DNA from: Chloroflexaceae bacterium
GTDB taxonomy: Bacteria > Chloroflexota > Chloroflexia > Chloroflexales > Chloroflexaceae
DNA length: 38,465 nucleotides
NCBI GenBank assembly: GCA_028282325.1
Contig: JANQID010000035.1
Span: 1-38,465, forward strand
Direction: 5' to 3'
Position numbers and translations under genes: made by a program. Under the pieces are notes generated by a model. That model ran no database searches. It was given only the letters and a program-made list of their open reading frames with translations, and was not told the DNA's origin. Below are positions 3,399-38,465 of the stretch, piece after piece (position 1 is the stretch's first letter; every line of letters starts with the position of its first letter).

Positions 3399-4811
3399 GT
3401 GAGCGACAGCACCTACGATATTGTCATTATCGGGTCCGGACCGGGCGGCTATGTCGCGGCTATTCGCGCCGGGCAAATCGGTTTGCGGACCGCTATCGTT
3501 GAATTCAGCGCACTGGGCGGGGTCTGCCTGAATGTCGGCTGCATCCCGACCAAGGCCCTGCTGCACAGCGCCGATTTGCTCGAAGAGGTCAAGGGCGGCA
3601 AACGCTTCGGCGTGCTCACGTCCGATGTCTCGTTCGACCTGGGCACCGCGATGAAACACAAAGCCACGGTGATCAAGCAGAGCGTCGAGGGCGTGGCTTT
3701 CCTGATGAAGAAAAACAAGGTCGATGTATATAACGGTCGCGGCGATATTGCCGGTCGCGGCGCGGTGCGCGTTCAGCTCAACGAGGGCGGTGAACAAACC
3801 CTTCAGACTCGGCACATCATTGTGGCGACCGGCGGACGCCCACGCGATCTGCCGGGCATCGCGTTCGACCGCGAGCGCATTCTCTCCTCGACCGATATGC
3901 TCAACCTGTCCGAAACGCCCACAAGCCTGCTCGTCGTCGGCGCGGGCGCGATCGGCATCGAGTTTGCCTCGATGTTTCACGCATTCGGCGCTGAAGTTAC
4001 GGTGATCGAGGCGCTGCCGCGTATCGTGCCCAATGAGGATGAAGAAGTCAGCGCCGAGCTGGCAAAGGCATTCCAGCGCCGCGGCATCAAGACAATGGCC
4101 GGGGCGACCCTGAAGAGCGCCGTGCACAGCGAAACCGGGGTGACGGTAGAGGTCGCCGACAGCAGCGGCAAAACGCACCAGCTCGAATTCGAGCGTATGC
4201 TGTTGGGTATCGGCATTCAGCCCAACACCCTGGGCATCGGCTTGGAAGAAGCCGGCGTCAAACTGAATCCGCGCGGTTTTGTGGAAGTTGACAGTATGAT
4301 GCGCACCGCCGCCGAGGGCGTTTACGCAATCGGCGACTGCTGCACAACCACGCCGTGGCTGGCGCACAAAGCCTCCGCCGAGGGTATTCTCGCGGTCGAG
4401 CACATCGCTGGCCACAATGTGCAGCCGATCGACTACGGGCGCATTGCGGCCTGCACCTACTGCACCCCGGAGATTGCCAGCGTCGGCCTGACCGAAGCCC
4501 AGGCGAAAGAGCAGGGCTATAACGTGAAGGTGGGCAAATTTCCCTTCTCGGCGAACGGCAAAGCACGCGTGTTGGGGCAAAGCCGCGTCGGCTTCATCAA
4601 AATCATCGCCGACACACAATACGATGAAATCCTGGGCGTCCATATGATCGGCCCGCACGTAACCGAGATGATCAGCGAGGGCGGCCTGGCCCTGAGCCAC
4701 GAGGCGACGGGCGAGAGCATGCTCCAGACGATCCACGCCCACCCGACGCTCTACGAAGCGATCGGCGAAGCGGCCCACGCCCTGGTGCATGGCGCGGCGA
4801 TCCACATCTAG
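3399..4811 (+). CDS. lpdA: Dihydrolipoamide dehydrogenase
   Basis: The 470-residue product is a full-length class I flavin disulfide reductase, the E3 subunit that reoxidises dihydrolipoamide with NAD+ in 2-oxoacid dehydrogenase or glycine cleavage complexes. The N-terminal FAD site reads GSGPGGYVAA. The redox-active disulfide is C43 and C48 in GGVCLNVGC. The NAD site is GAGAIGIEFASMF, and the C-terminal dimer-interface pair is H448 and E453 in HPTLYE. The start is a GTG preceded by AAAGAAAGG. No E1, E2 or lipoyl-protein genes are adjacent, so the complex it serves cannot be told from context. A long open frame on the opposite strand is a shadow. Confidence 0.96.
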   Translation: MSDSTYDIVIIGSGPGGYVAAIRAGQIGLRTAIVEFSALGGVCLNVGCIPTKALLHSADLLEEVKGGKRFGVLTSDVSFDLGTAMKHKATVIKQSVEGVAFLMKKNKVDVYNGRGDIAGRGAVRVQLNEGGEQTLQTRHIIVATGGRPRDLPGIAFDRERILSSTDMLNLSETPTSLLVVGAGAIGIEFASMFHAFGAEVTVIEALPRIVPNEDEEVSAELAKAFQRRGIKTMAGATLKSAVHSETGVTVEVADSSGKTHQLEFERMLLGIGIQPNTLGIGLEEAGVKLNPRGFVEVDSMMRTAAEGVYAIGDCCTTTPWLAHKASAEGILAVEHIAGHNVQPIDYGRIAACTYCTPEIASVGLTEAQAKEQGYNVKVGKFPFSANGKARVLGQSRVGFIKIIADTQYDEILGVHMIGPHVTEMISEGGLALSHEATGESMLQTIHAHPTLYEAIGEAAHALVHGAAIHI

Positions 4812-5490: not shown

Positions 5491-5529
5491 GAAGCATCAT
5501 TTACACGTAAACAGGTGAAAGACAATGCT

Positions 5530-6843
5530 ATGAGCTATGCGATTGCGCGACAGCGAAACAACAATCTCGACGCTAACAAGCTTTACAACGAGGATCGCGC
5601 AATTCATGAATGGTATCGCTTTGTTTTGTCATTTCCGCCGCACCTCGTTCGCCAATATCTCGAACGTTTCGCCGCAACCCCTGGGAAACGCGTTCTCGAT
5701 CCTTTTTGCGGCACTGGAACAACAGTCGTCGAGTGCAAAAAATTAGGCATTGAGGGCGTTGGCATTGAAGGCAATCCAATAGCGCACTTCGCTAGCGGCG
5801 TAAAAACTGACTGGTCAATTAACCCCGATGCTCTTGTGATCGAGGCGCAGCGCCTTGCCGAAATCGTACGCGAACAACTACTGGCTATTGGCATCCAAGA
5901 TGAAATGCCTTTAATCCAAATGCCTGCTGACCATACGGCGCTTCGCTCTTTACCGCCTGAACAAGCCAATCTCTTACTAACGAACTCAATCAGTCCTCTT
6001 CCGCTGCATAAGGCGCTTGTGCTTCGTGACGCCATTTATGAACAAGCCAGCGCCAGGCATGCAAACCACTTACTGCTTGCGCTGGTGAAAGCGCTGGTAA
6101 TCAGCGCCAGTAATTTACATTTCGGTCCAGAGGTTGGCGTGGGCGCAATCAAGAATGATGCAGTAGTCATCGCTCCCTGGCTTGCCAATGTTCAAGCAAT
6201 GGCGCAAGATATTGCTATGCTTCATGATGAATGCCCGGCGCCGTCAAACATTCATCTAGGAGATGCGCGAAATATCGCGGCAATGCTTCCACAACAATCG
6301 ATTGATATTGTTATTACTTCGCCTCCATATCCTAATGAGAAAGATTACACACGTACCACTCGGTTAGAGTCAGTGTTTCTCAGTTTTGTGCAGAATAAGG
6401 CCGACCTTCGCGCTATGAAGAAAGGGCTTGTACGTTCCAACACACGCGGCGTATACAAAGAAGATAATGATCACGAATCGGTTGAGAATCTTCCAAGCAT
6501 TCAGACGTTAGCTGATAGCATTGAGCAACGTCGCGTTGAACTAGGCAAGACATCCGGTTTTGAGCGACTTTATGCGCGAGTTACGCGCCTGTATTTTGGA
6601 GGCATGGCCCGCCATCTGTCAGAACTACGAAGCCGCCTCGCTCCAGGCGCTCAACTTGCTTACGTCGTAGGAGATCAAGCATCTTATTTCAGAGTGATGA
6701 TCCGCACGGGCGAGATATTCTGTGAAATTGCTGAACACTTAGGCTATAATGTCGTCGGAGTGGATCTCTTCCGTACCCGGCTTGCAACCGCCACGCGAGA
6801 ACAGATGCGCGAGGAGGTGGTCATATTGCAGTGGCAGGGTTAG
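5530..6843 (+). CDS. Solitary site-specific DNA amino-methyltransferase (N6-adenine or N4-cytosine)
   Basis: This 437-residue protein has the SAM-binding motif I DPFCGTGTT at residues 57-65 and the catalytic motif IV TSPPY at 263-267, about 200 residues later. The variable segment between them may include the target recognition region. TSPPY is common in N4-cytosine enzymes, but N6-adenine activity cannot be excluded. I prefer the ATG at 5530, with AGGTGAAAG upstream, to the GTG at 5515, which lacks a ribosome site. The coding sequence is noticeably more AT-rich than its neighbours and its codon choices differ, suggesting horizontal acquisition. No recognisable endonuclease gene is adjacent, so it is either an orphan methylase or the survivor of a lost restriction-modification system. 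Confidence 0.87.
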   Translation: MSYAIARQRNNNLDANKLYNEDRAIHEWYRFVLSFPPHLVRQYLERFAATPGKRVLDPFCGTGTTVVECKKLGIEGVGIEGNPIAHFASGVKTDWSINPDALVIEAQRLAEIVREQLLAIGIQDEMPLIQMPADHTALRSLPPEQANLLLTNSISPLPLHKALVLRDAIYEQASARHANHLLLALVKALVISASNLHFGPEVGVGAIKNDAVVIAPWLANVQAMAQDIAMLHDECPAPSNIHLGDARNIAAMLPQQSIDIVITSPPYPNEKDYTRTTRLESVFLSFVQNKADLRAMKKGLVRSNTRGVYKEDNDHESVENLPSIQTLADSIEQRRVELGKTSGFERLYARVTRLYFGGMARHLSELRSRLAPGAQLAYVVGDQASYFRVMIRTGEIFCEIAEHLGYNVVGVDLFRTRLATATREQMREEVVILQWQG

Positions 6844-32181: not shown

Positions 32182-33276
32182 ATGCCCAACATATCTTGTA
32201 CCCAGATTGAACCCGGCGTCGTGGCCGGTCAATGGTGGCATCGACTTGCAGATGGTCGCATTCAATGCGATCTGTGCCCACGAGAATGCAAAATGCACCC
32301 CGGCCAGCGCGGGTTCTGCTTCATACGCCAGGCCCACGCTGATGGCATGGTTCTGACCAGCTATGGGCGCGCATCAGGCTTTTGCATCGACCCGATCGAG
32401 AAAAAACCGCTGAATCATTTCTATCCCGGCTCCAGCGTCCTTTCGTTCGGCACTGCTGGCTGCAACCTCGGCTGCCAGTTTTGCCAGAACTGGGACATCT
32501 CAAAGGCGCGGGAGATGGATCGCCTCGGCGCGTGGGCGCTGCCCGACGTCATCGCCGATATCGCAGCGCGCGAGCATTGCCGGAGCATCGCGTTAACCTA
32601 CAACGATCCAGTGATTTTCGCCGAATACGCGATCGACTGCGCACAGGCGGCGCACGCCCGCGGCATCAAGACGGTCGCCGTCTCCGCCGGTTACATCTCG
32701 CCCGCCGCACGACCGGCGTTCTACGAACATATCGACGCGGCGAACATCGACCTGAAAGCGTTTACCAAGGAGTTCTATCGCAAGCTGTGCCTGGTATCGC
32801 TGGCACCGGTGCTCGACACGTTGCGCTGGCTGCGGCACGAGTCGGATGTCTGGCTAGAGGTGACGACGCTGATCATCCCCGGTCATAACGACTCGCCGGA
32901 CGAAATCGCGCGCTTGTGCGACTGGTTCGTCACGGAACTGGGCCCCGGTGTGCCGCTCCATTTTAGCGCGTTTCACCCGGACTATCGCATGCGCGATACG
33001 CCGCCAACCCCTGCCGCGACGCTCAAGCAGGCCCGACTTCAAGCCCTGGAAGCCGGCATTCGTTATGTCTACACAGGCAATGTGTACGACACCGAAGGCC
33101 AATCGACCTACTGCCACGCCTGCGGCGCATTGCTGATCGAGCGCGACTGGTACACACTGGGACGTTGGAACCTGGACGCGCAAGGATGTTGCTGCAACTG
33201 CGGCGCGCCGCTCGCCGGACATTTCGCGGCGCAGCCCGGCGCGTGGGGCGCGCGCCGCAAACCGATTGCGCTCTAA
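32182..33276 (+). CDS. amrS: AmmeMemoRadiSam system radical SAM enzyme
   Basis: A 364-residue radical SAM protein with the AmrS layout. It has an N-terminal cysteine cluster (C29, C32, C36, C46 in CDLCPREC...GFC) and the SAM-cluster motif C94-x3-C98-x2-C101 in AGCNLGCQFCQNW. The barrel follows, then a C-terminal zinc-ribbon-like tail with two CxxC pairs (CHAC and CNC). AmrS is found with AmrB (Memo-like) and usually AmrA (AMMECR1-like); the reaction is not known, although a modification role has been suggested. It lies 35 bases before amrB. AmrA is not in the window. Confidence 0.9.
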   Translation: MPNISCTQIEPGVVAGQWWHRLADGRIQCDLCPRECKMHPGQRGFCFIRQAHADGMVLTSYGRASGFCIDPIEKKPLNHFYPGSSVLSFGTAGCNLGCQFCQNWDISKAREMDRLGAWALPDVIADIAAREHCRSIALTYNDPVIFAEYAIDCAQAAHARGIKTVAVSAGYISPAARPAFYEHIDAANIDLKAFTKEFYRKLCLVSLAPVLDTLRWLRHESDVWLEVTTLIIPGHNDSPDEIARLCDWFVTELGPGVPLHFSAFHPDYRMRDTPPTPAATLKQARLQALEAGIRYVYTGNVYDTEGQSTYCHACGALLIERDWYTLGRWNLDAQGCCCNCGAPLAGHFAAQPGAWGARRKPIAL

Positions 33277-33311
33277 CAGAGCGAGCAGGCAGACATTTAT
33301 CGAGGCGCGCT

Positions 33312-34148
33312 ATGGATGTACGACCATCACCTATCGCCGGAGCCTGGTACCCCAACGATCCCGCCCGCCTACGCCAGACGCTCGATCGCTACCTGGCCGA
33401 CGTTCGCGTCGAGCTGCCGCCGGGCGACATTGTCGGCATCGTTGCGCCGCACGCCGGGCTGAGCTATTCCGGGCCGGTGGCGGCGTGGGCGTTCGCGTGC
33501 CTGCACGATCAACACCCTGACCTGGTCGTGATCGTTGGGCCGATGCATCGACCCGCGCCGGCGCCGCTGCTCACCACCGCGCACGAGGCCTACGCAACGC
33601 CCCTGGGCGATGCGCCGGTAGATCATGCGGCCATACAGCGCCTGGACGCCGCCCTGCGCGAGCGTTTGGGCTTTGGCTTAACACCGGTGCGCGAAGATCC
33701 CGAACACTCGCTGGAGATCGAGCTGCCATTTTTGCAACATGTGCTTGGCTCGTTCCACCTGCTGCCGGTAATGATCCGCGACCAGCGCCCCGAAACAGCT
33801 GCCGCGTTGGGCCAGGCGCTGGTCGATGCACTGGCCGATCAACGCGTCCTGCTTGTCGCCAGTTCCGACCTCTCGCATTTCTACCCGCAAACCGCCGCCG
33901 CGCAATTTGACCGCGAGCTCCTGCGCCGCGTGGAGGCATTCGACGCCGACGGCGTGCTTGCCGCCGAACACGAAGGCGCAGGGTTCGCCTGCGGAAGTAT
34001 GGCCATCGCCGCGATGCTGTGGGCGGCGCGCCGGCTCGGCGCCGACCGGGCCAGCGTGCTGCGCTACGCCACATCGGGCGACGTGACCGGCGACTACAGC
34101 TCGGTCGTCGGCTATGGCGCGGCGGTAATCTGGCGCTCAGGGACATAA
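33312..34148 (+). CDS. amrB: AmmeMemoRadiSam system protein B (Memo-like)
   Basis: The 278-residue protein is homologous to human MEMO1 and related to extradiol dioxygenases. Opening motif SPIAGAWYP is canonical. Metal- or active-site histidines and partners are seen in APHAGLSYSG, HSLEIELPFLQ, SSDLSHF and the late ACGSMAI with its conserved Cys. I choose the ATG at 33312 (GAGG upstream); the frame runs further back but overlaps amrS. It is probably co-transcribed with amrS. The biochemical function in bacteria is unknown. Confidence 0.9.
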   Translation: MDVRPSPIAGAWYPNDPARLRQTLDRYLADVRVELPPGDIVGIVAPHAGLSYSGPVAAWAFACLHDQHPDLVVIVGPMHRPAPAPLLTTAHEAYATPLGDAPVDHAAIQRLDAALRERLGFGLTPVREDPEHSLEIELPFLQHVLGSFHLLPVMIRDQRPETAAALGQALVDALADQRVLLVASSDLSHFYPQTAAAQFDRELLRRVEAFDADGVLAAEHEGAGFACGSMAIAAMLWAARRLGADRASVLRYATSGDVTGDYSSVVGYGAAVIWRSGT

Positions 34149-34255: not shown

Positions 34256-35659
34256 ATGCACCAATTGAGTTTGCCAATTGACGAGCAACGACGCGTTTCG
34301 GGCCAGAACTATTACGAACGTCTCGTAGCGTTGCTTGCCGCCGATCTCGATTTTCACGAACAGAACGGGCGCTATGCCTCACACAACTTCCACGCATTCC
34401 CTGCGAAGTTTCCCGCATGGCTGCCGCGCACCTTTATCACGGAACTGACCGAACCCGGCGCTACGGTGCTCGATCCAATGTCCGGCTCAGGCACGACGAT
34501 CCTGGAAGCGTTCCTGCTTGGACGACGCAGCATCGGTTTCGATATTGATCCGTTGGCATTACGCATCATCCAGGCCAAGGTAACGCCGTTGGAAGCGAGA
34601 GAAGCACTTCATCTGATGCACGGGTTAGTGAAGCGCGCCCGCAGCGCCGTCGAAACGCGCCGCACAGCGTTGCAAGAGCGATTGAATCGCCGCTGGGATG
34701 AAGCGACGCGCCAATTTGTTGACTATTGGTTCGCCCAAGAAACCCAGATCGAACTGATCGCGCTCCTGGAAGAAATCGAAGCCATCACGGATGCACCCGC
34801 ACGCGCCTTTTTTGAGCTGGCCCTCTCCGCGATCATCATCACCAAGTCCGGCGGCGTATCACTGGCGCTCGACCTTGCCCATACCCGACCGCATCGCGCC
34901 AAACGCGTGCTCGACAAAGATGGCGCCGTCCGCATTGATGATACGAACGCCGCCGAGTCACGCCGGATAAAAAATGTGACGAAGATCCTTCGTTCGGCGT
35001 TTGACGAATTTGAAAAGCGTGCGTTACTGAATATCCGAGGCTTGCCGCCGACAGACAACGCGCAGATTCCGCCGGCGATCCAATTCGGTAATGCTCAGGC
35101 GCTGCCTTTGGACAACAACGTGATCGATCTGATCGTCACCTCGCCGCCCTACGCTTCAAACGCCATCGACTATATGCGCGCCCACAAATTCGCACTGGTC
35201 TGGCTCGGCCATCCCATCGCGGAGTTGAGTAACGTGCGCCAGGCATATATCGGCGGCGATGCGATCAGCAACCACGAATTCGAAGCGCTGCCGGCTACGC
35301 CTGCCGACATTGTCGCAGCGATCACCCGCGTCGATCCGAAAAAAGGCCGCGTGCTACATCGCTATTACTCAGAGATGAGCCGGACGCTGCGCGAAATGCT
35401 GCGGGTTCTCAAGCCAGGCAAAGCGGCGATCGTCGTCGTAGGCAGTTCGGTTATGCGGAACATCGATACGAACACCGCGGAATGCCTCGCCGCGATCGGG
35501 CGCGCAATCGGCTTTGAAGTTCCCCGCATCGGGGTGCGGCGGCTTGATCGTGATCGGCGAATGATGCCGGCCGGCGCCGTTCGCAATCACGAGTCGCAGA
35601 TTCAGCAGCGTATGCACGAGGAATATGTCATCGGCTTCTATAAGCCGGAAGCATCGTGA
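34256..35659 (+). CDS. DNA amino-methyltransferase of an NgoMIV-like restriction-modification system
   Basis: The 467-residue protein has motif I DPMSGSGTT at residues 73-81 and catalytic motif IV TSPPY at 295-299, followed by the ASNAIDYMRAHKF block seen in this family. The N-terminal FHAFPAKFPAWLP is the motif X-like segment before motif I. The methylase is of the amino (N6-A or N4-C) type, not a 5-methylcytosine enzyme: it has no PC or ENV motif. The gene ends 27 bases before an endonuclease whose relatives recognise a site without adenine, so N4-cytosine methylation is most likely. A weak AGGAT site precedes the ATG. It is distinct from the solitary methylase at 5.5 kb. Confidence 0.9.
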   Translation: MHQLSLPIDEQRRVSGQNYYERLVALLAADLDFHEQNGRYASHNFHAFPAKFPAWLPRTFITELTEPGATVLDPMSGSGTTILEAFLLGRRSIGFDIDPLALRIIQAKVTPLEAREALHLMHGLVKRARSAVETRRTALQERLNRRWDEATRQFVDYWFAQETQIELIALLEEIEAITDAPARAFFELALSAIIITKSGGVSLALDLAHTRPHRAKRVLDKDGAVRIDDTNAAESRRIKNVTKILRSAFDEFEKRALLNIRGLPPTDNAQIPPAIQFGNAQALPLDNNVIDLIVTSPPYASNAIDYMRAHKFALVWLGHPIAELSNVRQAYIGGDAISNHEFEALPATPADIVAAITRVDPKKGRVLHRYYSEMSRTLREMLRVLKPGKAAIVVVGSSVMRNIDTNTAECLAAIGRAIGFEVPRIGVRRLDRDRRMMPAGAVRNHESQIQQRMHEEYVIGFYKPEAS

Positions 35660-35686
35660 TCCGCAATCCTCGCAAGAGATGCCATC

Positions 35687-36544
35687 ATGACCTTCGCCGC
35701 CTATCGACGCGAATACCACGCGCGCATCTTCCAGGAAATCGTGCGCGTCAGCTCGGATGCGCATAAAGAATACCCGAATTTTGCCGATAGCGGCAGCAAA
35801 GTCAGCATCGCTATCGCCTGGGGCGTTGTACATCGGCTAGGCCACGCAATCGGGTCAGATCCGATCAAAGGGCAGACTTCCGGCGGGCGCTTTGAAGAAG
35901 TCACAAAGGATTTTCTTGAGCAGGCTTTTACGCAATTGCAGCACATCCGGCCTGGGATATGGCATTATCGTACGCATCTGGCGATATCCGACTTCGATCA
36001 ATACGAACACCTCGCACACCTCCAGAAGGCTATCAAAAATAATAAAGAACTGGCTTCATCTCTGGGAGGAGACTACATTATCAAGCCAGACATCGTCGTT
36101 GGACGAGATCTCCTTTCTGACGAAGCGATTAATCAGCAACGCGCATTGATTGCCTCGTCGGATCATATTGCGCACTTGACACCGTTGCGTAAAGCAAACT
36201 CGCCGCATCAAAAACCGATATTGCACGCGAGCATTTCGTGTAAATGGACGTTGCGCAGTGACCGAGGTCAGAATGCGCGGACTGAAGCGCTCAACCTCAT
36301 TCGCAACCGCAAAGGCCCATTGCCGCATATCGTTGCAGTAACTGCGGAGCCGCTGCCGACGCGAATCGCCGCGCTGGCCCTGGGAACCGGCGATCTTGAC
36401 TGTGTCTATCACTTTGCCCTAGCTGAGCTTCAAGGAACGCTTCAGCAGCTTGGGAACGAAGATCAGCTAGATATGTTAACCATGCTCATTGAGGGTCGCA
36501 GGTTGCGCGACATCGGCGACCTTCCGTTTGATCTGGCCATATAA
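35687..36544 (+). CDS. Type II restriction endonuclease, NgoMIV family
   Basis: The 285-residue protein matches NgoMIV in length (286) and in active-site positions. E70 sits in GGRFE, D135 in KPD, S184 and K186 in SISCK, and E200 lies 14 residues after the lysine, the spacing of the variant PD...SxK-x13-E site of NgoMIV and Cfr10I. RSDR (190-193) is the core CCGG reader, and QTSG (with Q63) matches the minor-groove contact region, as I recall the structure. The tetrameric enzyme is expected to cut G/CCGGC. It is co-directional with a methyltransferase 27 bases upstream. The family is secure; the exact specificity is an inference. Confidence 0.9.
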   Translation: MTFAAYRREYHARIFQEIVRVSSDAHKEYPNFADSGSKVSIAIAWGVVHRLGHAIGSDPIKGQTSGGRFEEVTKDFLEQAFTQLQHIRPGIWHYRTHLAISDFDQYEHLAHLQKAIKNNKELASSLGGDYIIKPDIVVGRDLLSDEAINQQRALIASSDHIAHLTPLRKANSPHQKPILHASISCKWTLRSDRGQNARTEALNLIRNRKGPLPHIVAVTAEPLPTRIAALALGTGDLDCVYHFALAELQGTLQQLGNEDQLDMLTMLIEGRRLRDIGDLPFDLAI

Positions 36545-36965: not shown

Positions 36966-38465
36966 ATGACCCAACCGTACGATTTCGATCTGTACATCAC
37001 CGCGAGCGACGCCGCCTACAGCGTGCAGGCCCGATCGGCGCGCGGGGGCGAATCACCGCCCCAGCCGCTGGCGCTGCCCTTCGACCCGGCGCGCCTGCCC
37101 GACAAGCGGCGCGATGTGGCCGAGTGGATCAAGGCGGTACGAAACACGCGCCTACGCGGGCCGGAAGAGCTGCGCGCGGCGCGGGCGTTCGGCACAACCC
37201 TCTTCGACGCCCTTTTCCCCGCCGAGCTGCTGGCCGCCTTCCGCACCGGCCGCAGCAGCCTCGCTCCCGGCGAGCGTTTGCGGTTGCGCCTGCGTCTGCC
37301 CCCCGCGCTGGTGATGTTGCCCTGGGAATTGCTCTACGACCAGACCTACGACCAGTTTCTGGCCCTCGCCTCCGACCTGACCCTGGTGCGCTACCCGGAG
37401 ATGCCCGCCGCCGATCGCCCCTCCGGCCCGTTGCGCATCGACGGGCCGGTGCAGATCGTCGCGGTGCTGGCCAGCCCACAGAGTGACGACTATCCGCCCC
37501 TCCGGCTTGACCGCGAACTAAGCCGCCTGGAGCTGGCTCTCAAGCGGCTGCGCGACCAGAACCGGGTGCAGCTCGATGTCATTCGCGGCCCCGGCACGCT
37601 TGACCAGCTCCGCGAACGGTTGCGCCGCCCCACGCATATCCTGCATATTCTCAGCCACGGCGACCTGAACCGCGAGACCGGCGAGGGCGAACTGCTCTTC
37701 GAGGACGCCGACGGCGCCGCCGAGCCGATCAACGCCGACCTGCTACGGGTTTACCTGGAGCGCTGGCACGGGCAGGTGCAACTGGTAACATTGAACGCCT
37801 GTCTGGGGGCGCTGCCGGTGGGCGACGATCCCTCCAGCAGCGTGGGGCTGGCGCTGGTGCGCAGCGGCGCGCCGGCGGTTGTGGCGATGCAGTTCGAGAT
37901 TATGGAGGACGTGGCGGCGGAACTGACGCGGGTGCTCTACGCCGAACTGGCGGCGGGCGCGCCGGTGGACCGGGCGCTGAGCGAGGCGCGGCTGGAGATC
38001 CCCAGGCGCCATCGCACCCGGCTGGACTGGGCCATCCCGGTGCTCTTCTCGCGGGCCGAGACGGGCGTGCTGATAGAAAAGAAATCGCAGTCCGCCGACG
38101 TGAGCCAGCTCTGGCTTCAAGCGCTGGACGCCTACCTGACCCAGCGCTGGGAAGAGGCCGCCGACCTGCTGGGACAGGTCGCGGCGCTCGATCCGGACCA
38201 TCAAGACGTGCAACAACGCCTGACCGAGGCGCGCCGCCAGGTCGGGCTGGCCGAGTTCTACGCCGCGCTATGCGCCTTGCGTGAGGATGACAAGTGGCAA
38301 GCGGTGTTGAGTGGGTTGGACGAATGGGAGCGCCAGAAGCCAGATCCGCCCGATGACCCGCAGGGACTGCGCGCCTGGGCCGAAGGCCGCAAACGGCGCG
38401 AGGAGCGCTTTGCTGCCGCGTTGGCCGCCGCCGAACGCAACGCCTGGGCCGAGGCGATCCCGGCG
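36966..38465 (+). CDS. CHAT-domain (caspase-like) protease, C-terminus beyond the window
   Basis: The frame is open for exactly 500 codons to the window edge. Residues ~1-370 form a CHAT domain. MLPWELLYD at 117-125 is the usual entry motif. The catalytic dyad is H231 in HILSHGD and C279 in LNACLGA, with AVVAMQF and DWAIPVLFS as the late strands. Residues ~381-425 look like a TPR hairpin (ALDAYLTQRWEEAADLL...DPDH), and ~428-500 continue in a charged helical module. GAGGCAGG precedes the ATG. CHAT proteases act in bacterial defence and regulated cell death, and in Chloroflexia often carry C-terminal repeat sensors. The codon use is more GC-rich than in the restriction genes upstream. Confidence 0.88.
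   Translation, partial: MTQPYDFDLYITASDAAYSVQARSARGGESPPQPLALPFDPARLPDKRRDVAEWIKAVRNTRLRGPEELRAARAFGTTLFDALFPAELLAAFRTGRSSLAPGERLRLRLRLPPALVMLPWELLYDQTYDQFLALASDLTLVRYPEMPAADRPSGPLRIDGPVQIVAVLASPQSDDYPPLRLDRELSRLELALKRLRDQNRVQLDVIRGPGTLDQLRERLRRPTHILHILSHGDLNRETGEGELLFEDADGAAEPINADLLRVYLERWHGQVQLVTLNACLGALPVGDDPSSSVGLALVRSGAPAVVAMQFEIMEDVAAELTRVLYAELAAGAPVDRALSEARLEIPRRHRTRLDWAIPVLFSRAETGVLIEKKSQSADVSQLWLQALDAYLTQRWEEAADLLGQVAALDPDHQDVQQRLTEARRQVGLAEFYAALCALREDDKWQAVLSGLDEWERQKPDPPDDPQGLRAWAEGRKRREERFAAALAAAERNAWAEAIPA

Follow-up and report, generated by a model that had tools for sequence, protein, structure and literature searches.

An NgoMIV-type restriction endonuclease paired with a predicted N4-cytosine methyltransferase in Chloroflexota, and the varied methylase partners of its family

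On the nuclease side, the described restriction-modification system closest to the locus reported here is NgoMIV/NgoAIV of Neisseria gonorrhoeae (G/CCGGC), with which it shares the nuclease family, the catalytic and specificity residues, and the order of the genes, methylase before nuclease. The partners differ: that of Neisseria is a PF00145 methylase producing 5-methylcytosine (m5C; PMC6789123, the assignment being from REBASE), as a preliminary description of this DNA had stated, whereas the partner found here is an amino-methyltransferase. On the methylase side, the DraI system of Deinococcus radiodurans (M.DraR1, producing C-m4C-GCGG, with the Eco29kI-like R.DraR1) provides an alpha-class SPPY enzyme that is a colinear homologue, and its nuclease is likewise of a type normally partnered by m5C methylases (PMC10855626); it departs from the present locus in its GIY-YIG nuclease, its CCGCGG site, the ten ORFs lying between methylase and nuclease genes, and a methylase identity of about 24%. 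The CbeI/M.CbeI system of Caldicellulosiruptor bescii (GGCC) also employs an alpha-class N4-cytosine methylase, its isoschizomer HaeIII having an m5C partner (PMC3425538); M.CbeI, likened to our enzyme by its published description, carries DPPY rather than SPPY and acts on another site. The methylase of an MvaI/BcnI-family system on plasmid pL11827-3 of Liquorilactobacillus nagelii aligns with the family described below over 393 columns (hhalign Prob 99.9), but that system, whose function is known by annotation only, has a nuclease of another family, divergently oriented genes and an HTH regulator. The principle of an m5C-to-m4C exchange around one specificity is already known from R.DraR1/Eco29kI and CbeI/HaeIII (PMC10855626, PMC3425538). 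A literature search found no paper on an NgoMIV-type nuclease with an N4-cytosine methylase; REBASE, which lay outside that search, may list such pairs. What is added here is that the exchange is family-wide, and that two differently built amino-methylases serve one nuclease family.

The window (the whole 38,465-nucleotide stretch of Chloroflexota DNA that was analysed) carries the methylase gene at 34256-35659 (+; 467 aa) and the endonuclease gene at 35687-36544 (+; 285 aa), coordinates which the preliminary description had given correctly, with a gap of 27 nt between them. Neither a C-protein gene nor another nuclease was seen between or directly beside the two, and scans for promoters and terminators remained at chance level. 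The assignment of the downstream product to the NgoMIV type was borne out far beyond chance: the protein matches the PF09015 profile end to end (1-275 of 275, E 9.6e-113), scoring 376.4 bits against a gathering score of 23.2, and its residues 3-285 match crystallised NgoMIV (1fiu; phmmer E 2.1e-80). Its permuted active site (E70, D135, S184, K186 and E200) aligns with E70, D140, S185, K187 and E201 of NgoMIV. The "exact pattern" claimed earlier holds for these residues and for the lysine-to-glutamate spacing, which is 14 in both proteins, but not for the distance from D135 to K186, which is 51 residues here and 47 in NgoMIV.

Specificity in NgoMIV is well mapped onto individual side chains, the CCGG core being read by R191, D193 and R194 (PMC4652773; PMC6344858) and the outer G:C pair by Q63, S192, D34 and R227 (PMC4652773). 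By alignment, the corresponding elements of the window protein are RSDR (residues 190-193, 36254-36265, +; NgoMIV R191-S192-D193-R194), QTSG (residues 63-66, 35873-35884, +), in which Q63 of NgoMIV makes its outer G:C contact in the minor groove, D34 (codon at 35786-35788, +) and R226 (codon at 36362-36364, +; NgoMIV R227); the first two of these motifs had been recognised previously. An alignment of 43 nucleases places every published GCCGGC-reading and catalytic residue of NgoMIV in the window protein, and the same residues are kept in 23 of 23 nucleases paired with a methylase of the window type, bar one S192N and one change of E to G at position 70. The gene encodes an intact NgoMIV-family member and, because the published readout residues for both CCGG and the outer G:C are kept, GCCGGC is the site to be expected of it.

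The upstream product is a DNA amino-methyltransferase. It matches PF01555 (N6_N4_Mtase, E 5e-21) in two stretches, the C-terminal part of the profile lying at the N-terminus of the protein, and PADLOC MTase_II (E 1.7e-37); a profile search gave no match to PF00145. Both motifs named in the preliminary description are present: DPMSGSGTT (motif I, AdoMet binding; residues 73-81, 34472-34498, +) and the catalytic TSPPY (motif IV; residues 295-299, 35138-35152, +). Their arrangement, X-I followed by a TRD-like region and then IV, with about 210 residues between I and IV, is the alpha order. LDPM-GSGT and TSPPY are invariant in a 20-sequence alignment of this methylase family; across the wider survey (see below), TSPPY never varies, either in the 28 alpha loci whose sequence extends that far or in the four beta loci. 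The predicted structure (mean pLDDT 81.5) matches Rossmann methylases in linear order. In a PDB fold comparison the top-ranking matches were tRNA methylases (Trm11/Trm14 kind), an outcome that indicates a Rossmann methylase in linear order and nothing more.

With regard to the base modified, SPP(Y/F) has been taken as a hallmark of N4-cytosine methylases (PMC3425538, PMC6712171, PMC10855626). M.CbeI, however, makes m4C with a DPPY motif (PMC3425538), and the SPPY/DPPY distinction is best regarded as a strong indicator of the base chosen rather than an infallible one. A further pointer is M.DraR1, established by SMRT sequencing and mass spectrometry as an alpha-class m4C enzyme acting on CCGCGG (PMC6712171). 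This is the nearest experimentally proven full-length relative that we found, being 24.5% identical to the window methylase (tblastn E 2e-12) and colinear with its family nearly end to end (hhalign Prob 99.7 over 374 columns). The record compared was A2G07_RS15995 on plasmid CP1, the paper naming A2G07_16000/DR_C0020 on the small plasmid; as the site-specific methylase of that plasmid it is very likely, if not certainly, M.DraR1. Since GCCGGC contains no adenine, cytosine would be the target; that the methylase recognizes this sequence is assumed from the nuclease, the TRD of the methylase being unreadable. Protection of GCCGGC by N4-methylcytosine is the best reading and one that we hold to be highly probable. 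The exchange of chemistry proposed in the preliminary description is supported by the kept specificity residues, the adenine-free site, a host without PF00145, the TSPPY motif and the kinship with M.DraR1.

The same observations bear on an alternative in which the nuclease has drifted to a CCGG site flanked by an outer A:T pair (e.g. ACCGGT or RCCGGY), where the methylase would produce N6-methyladenine. Amino-methylases of PF01555 act on either adenine N6 or cytosine N4, and other CCGG-family nucleases read an outer A:T with the same fold (PMC4652773); however, the window protein and nearly all relatives retain the outer G:C determinants D34, Q63, S192 and R227, and both the TSPPY form and the homology to M.DraR1 favour cytosine N4. 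We consider such a drift improbable.

A survey of GTDB contigs, plasmids and genomes searched with PF09015 (400 genomes from the window's phylum and 82 from its order, together with 294 around a centre in Planctomycetota and 395 around one in Pseudomonadota) yielded 52 NgoMIV loci, 50 of which could be typed by partner. In 29 of these 50, spread over at least six phyla, the partner is homologous to the window methylase (43-65% identity). An m5C methylase occupies the position in 17, comprising two kinds that are about 26-32% alike; five of these partners were checked and match PF00145 (E 1e-64 to 4e-81). The remaining four loci carry a third partner, a beta-order methylase (284-292 aa) in which TSPPY stands near residue 40 and DPFSGSG near 243, of which the one checked matches PF01555 (E 2e-49); they (L046, L047, L048 and L049) belong to a single Chloroflexota family (f18, genus g42). 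Beyond the earlier claim, then, the pairing represents a widespread subfamily and is not peculiar to the window genome; elsewhere, a second amino-methylase of different build has been recruited. Every typed locus has both genes on one strand, the methylase gene being the upstream one. Among the 29 loci with the window pairing the gaps are short, and distances among methylases co-vary with those among nucleases (Mantel r 0.89, p 0.0002), a correlation that in part reflects joint inheritance rather than specificity. Stops or frameshifts break the nuclease gene in L012, L049, L052, L055, L062, L110 and L116, the methylase being mostly kept, and L054 is a nuclease 3' remnant without methylase; restriction by this family seems often to be lost. 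Pattern-based scans of viral contigs revealed no homologue of either protein.

The methylase and nuclease of the window could also be neighbours that are not cognate, with the former acting on another site and the latter silent or inactive. Several related nuclease genes are broken, loss of restriction being common, and the host shows no special depletion of GCCGGC; yet the window nuclease is of full length with all active-site residues present, and 29 loci from many phyla retain the pairing, with both genes on one strand and short gaps between them, leaving this arrangement very unlikely. Within the window GCCGGC occurs 30 times against 30.0 expected from shuffling, and is neither avoided nor enriched; the sites listed earlier at 4251, 28717, 35566 and 35570 were all confirmed. 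A 311 kb sample of the host contains 292 occurrences, and at that frequency protection is needed. Avoidance was considered as a sign of nuclease activity and set aside: the site stands at 0.77 of its Markov estimate in the host (311 kb), ranking 22 of 58 palindromes, a value that does not discriminate. In G012, a relative with an m5C-type NgoMIV pair, it stands at 0.12 of expectation and many palindromes are depleted; avoidance has no discriminating power because it is a host-wide habit there. The depletion of 6-bp palindromes in 354 kb of that genome (L147-L166) is extreme, CCGCGG and CGTACG each occurring 0 times and GGGCCC once. A deamination signature, sought as an excess of GCTGGC/GCCAGC, showed no clear difference.

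The host genome has a completeness rating of 99.98%. PF00145 found 0 matches in it, the same control search being positive in 10 of 14 genomes, Vsr was likewise without a match, and nine loci match PF01555. With GCCGGC frequent and an m5C methylase lacking by this search, an active nuclease would require protection by an amino-methylase, and the enzyme encoded next to it is the obvious candidate for the protector of host sites. That an unseen m5C methylase elsewhere fills this role, the adjacent enzyme being an extra, is conceivable for a draft in 140 contigs but exceedingly improbable, given the empty PF00145 and Vsr searches of so complete a genome and the conservation of the adjacent methylase together with the nuclease.

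Under N4-cytosine protection, the two genes would constitute a type II restriction-modification system in which the downstream product cleaves unmarked G/CCGGC, while the alpha-class methylase would place a methyl group on the exocyclic N4 of one GCCGGC cytosine, on both strands, and so protect host DNA. Because the aspartate of R-S-D-R recognises the CCGG cytosines through their N4 amino groups, N4-methylation of such a cytosine would be expected to perturb this interaction and directly prevent the nuclease from binding or cutting. R.DraR1 still cuts m5C-marked DNA but does not cut DNA marked with m4C (PMC10855626).

The distribution of partners on an unrooted tree of the nucleases requires at least four changes of partner kind and at least one change of chemistry. 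A modestly supported branch (60/84) separates the rows paired with m5C methylases from the others, and an m5C clade of 13 rows has strong support (100/99). The host's own family holds both chemistries, m5C in G012, G375, G214 and G811, and amino in the window genome and G134. Vsr repairs the T:G mismatches that arise by deamination of m5C. It lies beside 8 of 17 m5C loci as against 0 of 33 amino loci, some of the latter having short flanks (Fisher p 4.5e-5); this p value is overstated because the contrast is a single phylogenetic split: in an independent-pairs test of Vsr with chemistry, the latter changes once on the unrooted tree, so that the association is without independent replicates. 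We lean toward the view that on at least three occasions NgoMIV nucleases acquired a new, unrelated methylase partner, the partners representing two chemistries (two m5C kinds, and the alpha-order and beta-order amino kinds) and all serving GCCGGC, and that the most widespread branch of the family, found in many phyla, is an m4C system, the Neisseria m5C system forming a side branch.

A nuclease type of solved structure, with a single site guarded by four kinds of methylase, constitutes a clean natural set. It allows one to ask how a methylase can be replaced without death of the cell, whether the nuclease has adapted to m4C as opposed to m5C, and whether m4C is preferred in hot or mutation-sensitive hosts. 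As a practical rule, a Vsr gene beside an NgoMIV gene predicts m5C, and a TSPPY gene predicts m4C; cloned pairs would yield reagents for m4C in GCCGGC.

Other features of the window may be recorded. Directly upstream of the pair, at 32182-34148 (+), lie genes for a radical SAM protein and a Memo-like protein (PF01875), as in the AmmeMemoRadiSam set. About 420 bases past the nuclease gene begins another (36966-38465, +), running off the window end, whose product displays by eye the CHAT-like caspase motifs HILSHGD and LNACLG. A second alpha-order TSPPY amino-methylase (442 aa; DPFCGTGTT, then TSPPY) is encoded at 5515-6843 (+); no nuclease was recognised beside it, so that it may be solitary, and it is 51% identical to a plasmid protein of Leptolyngbya boryana.
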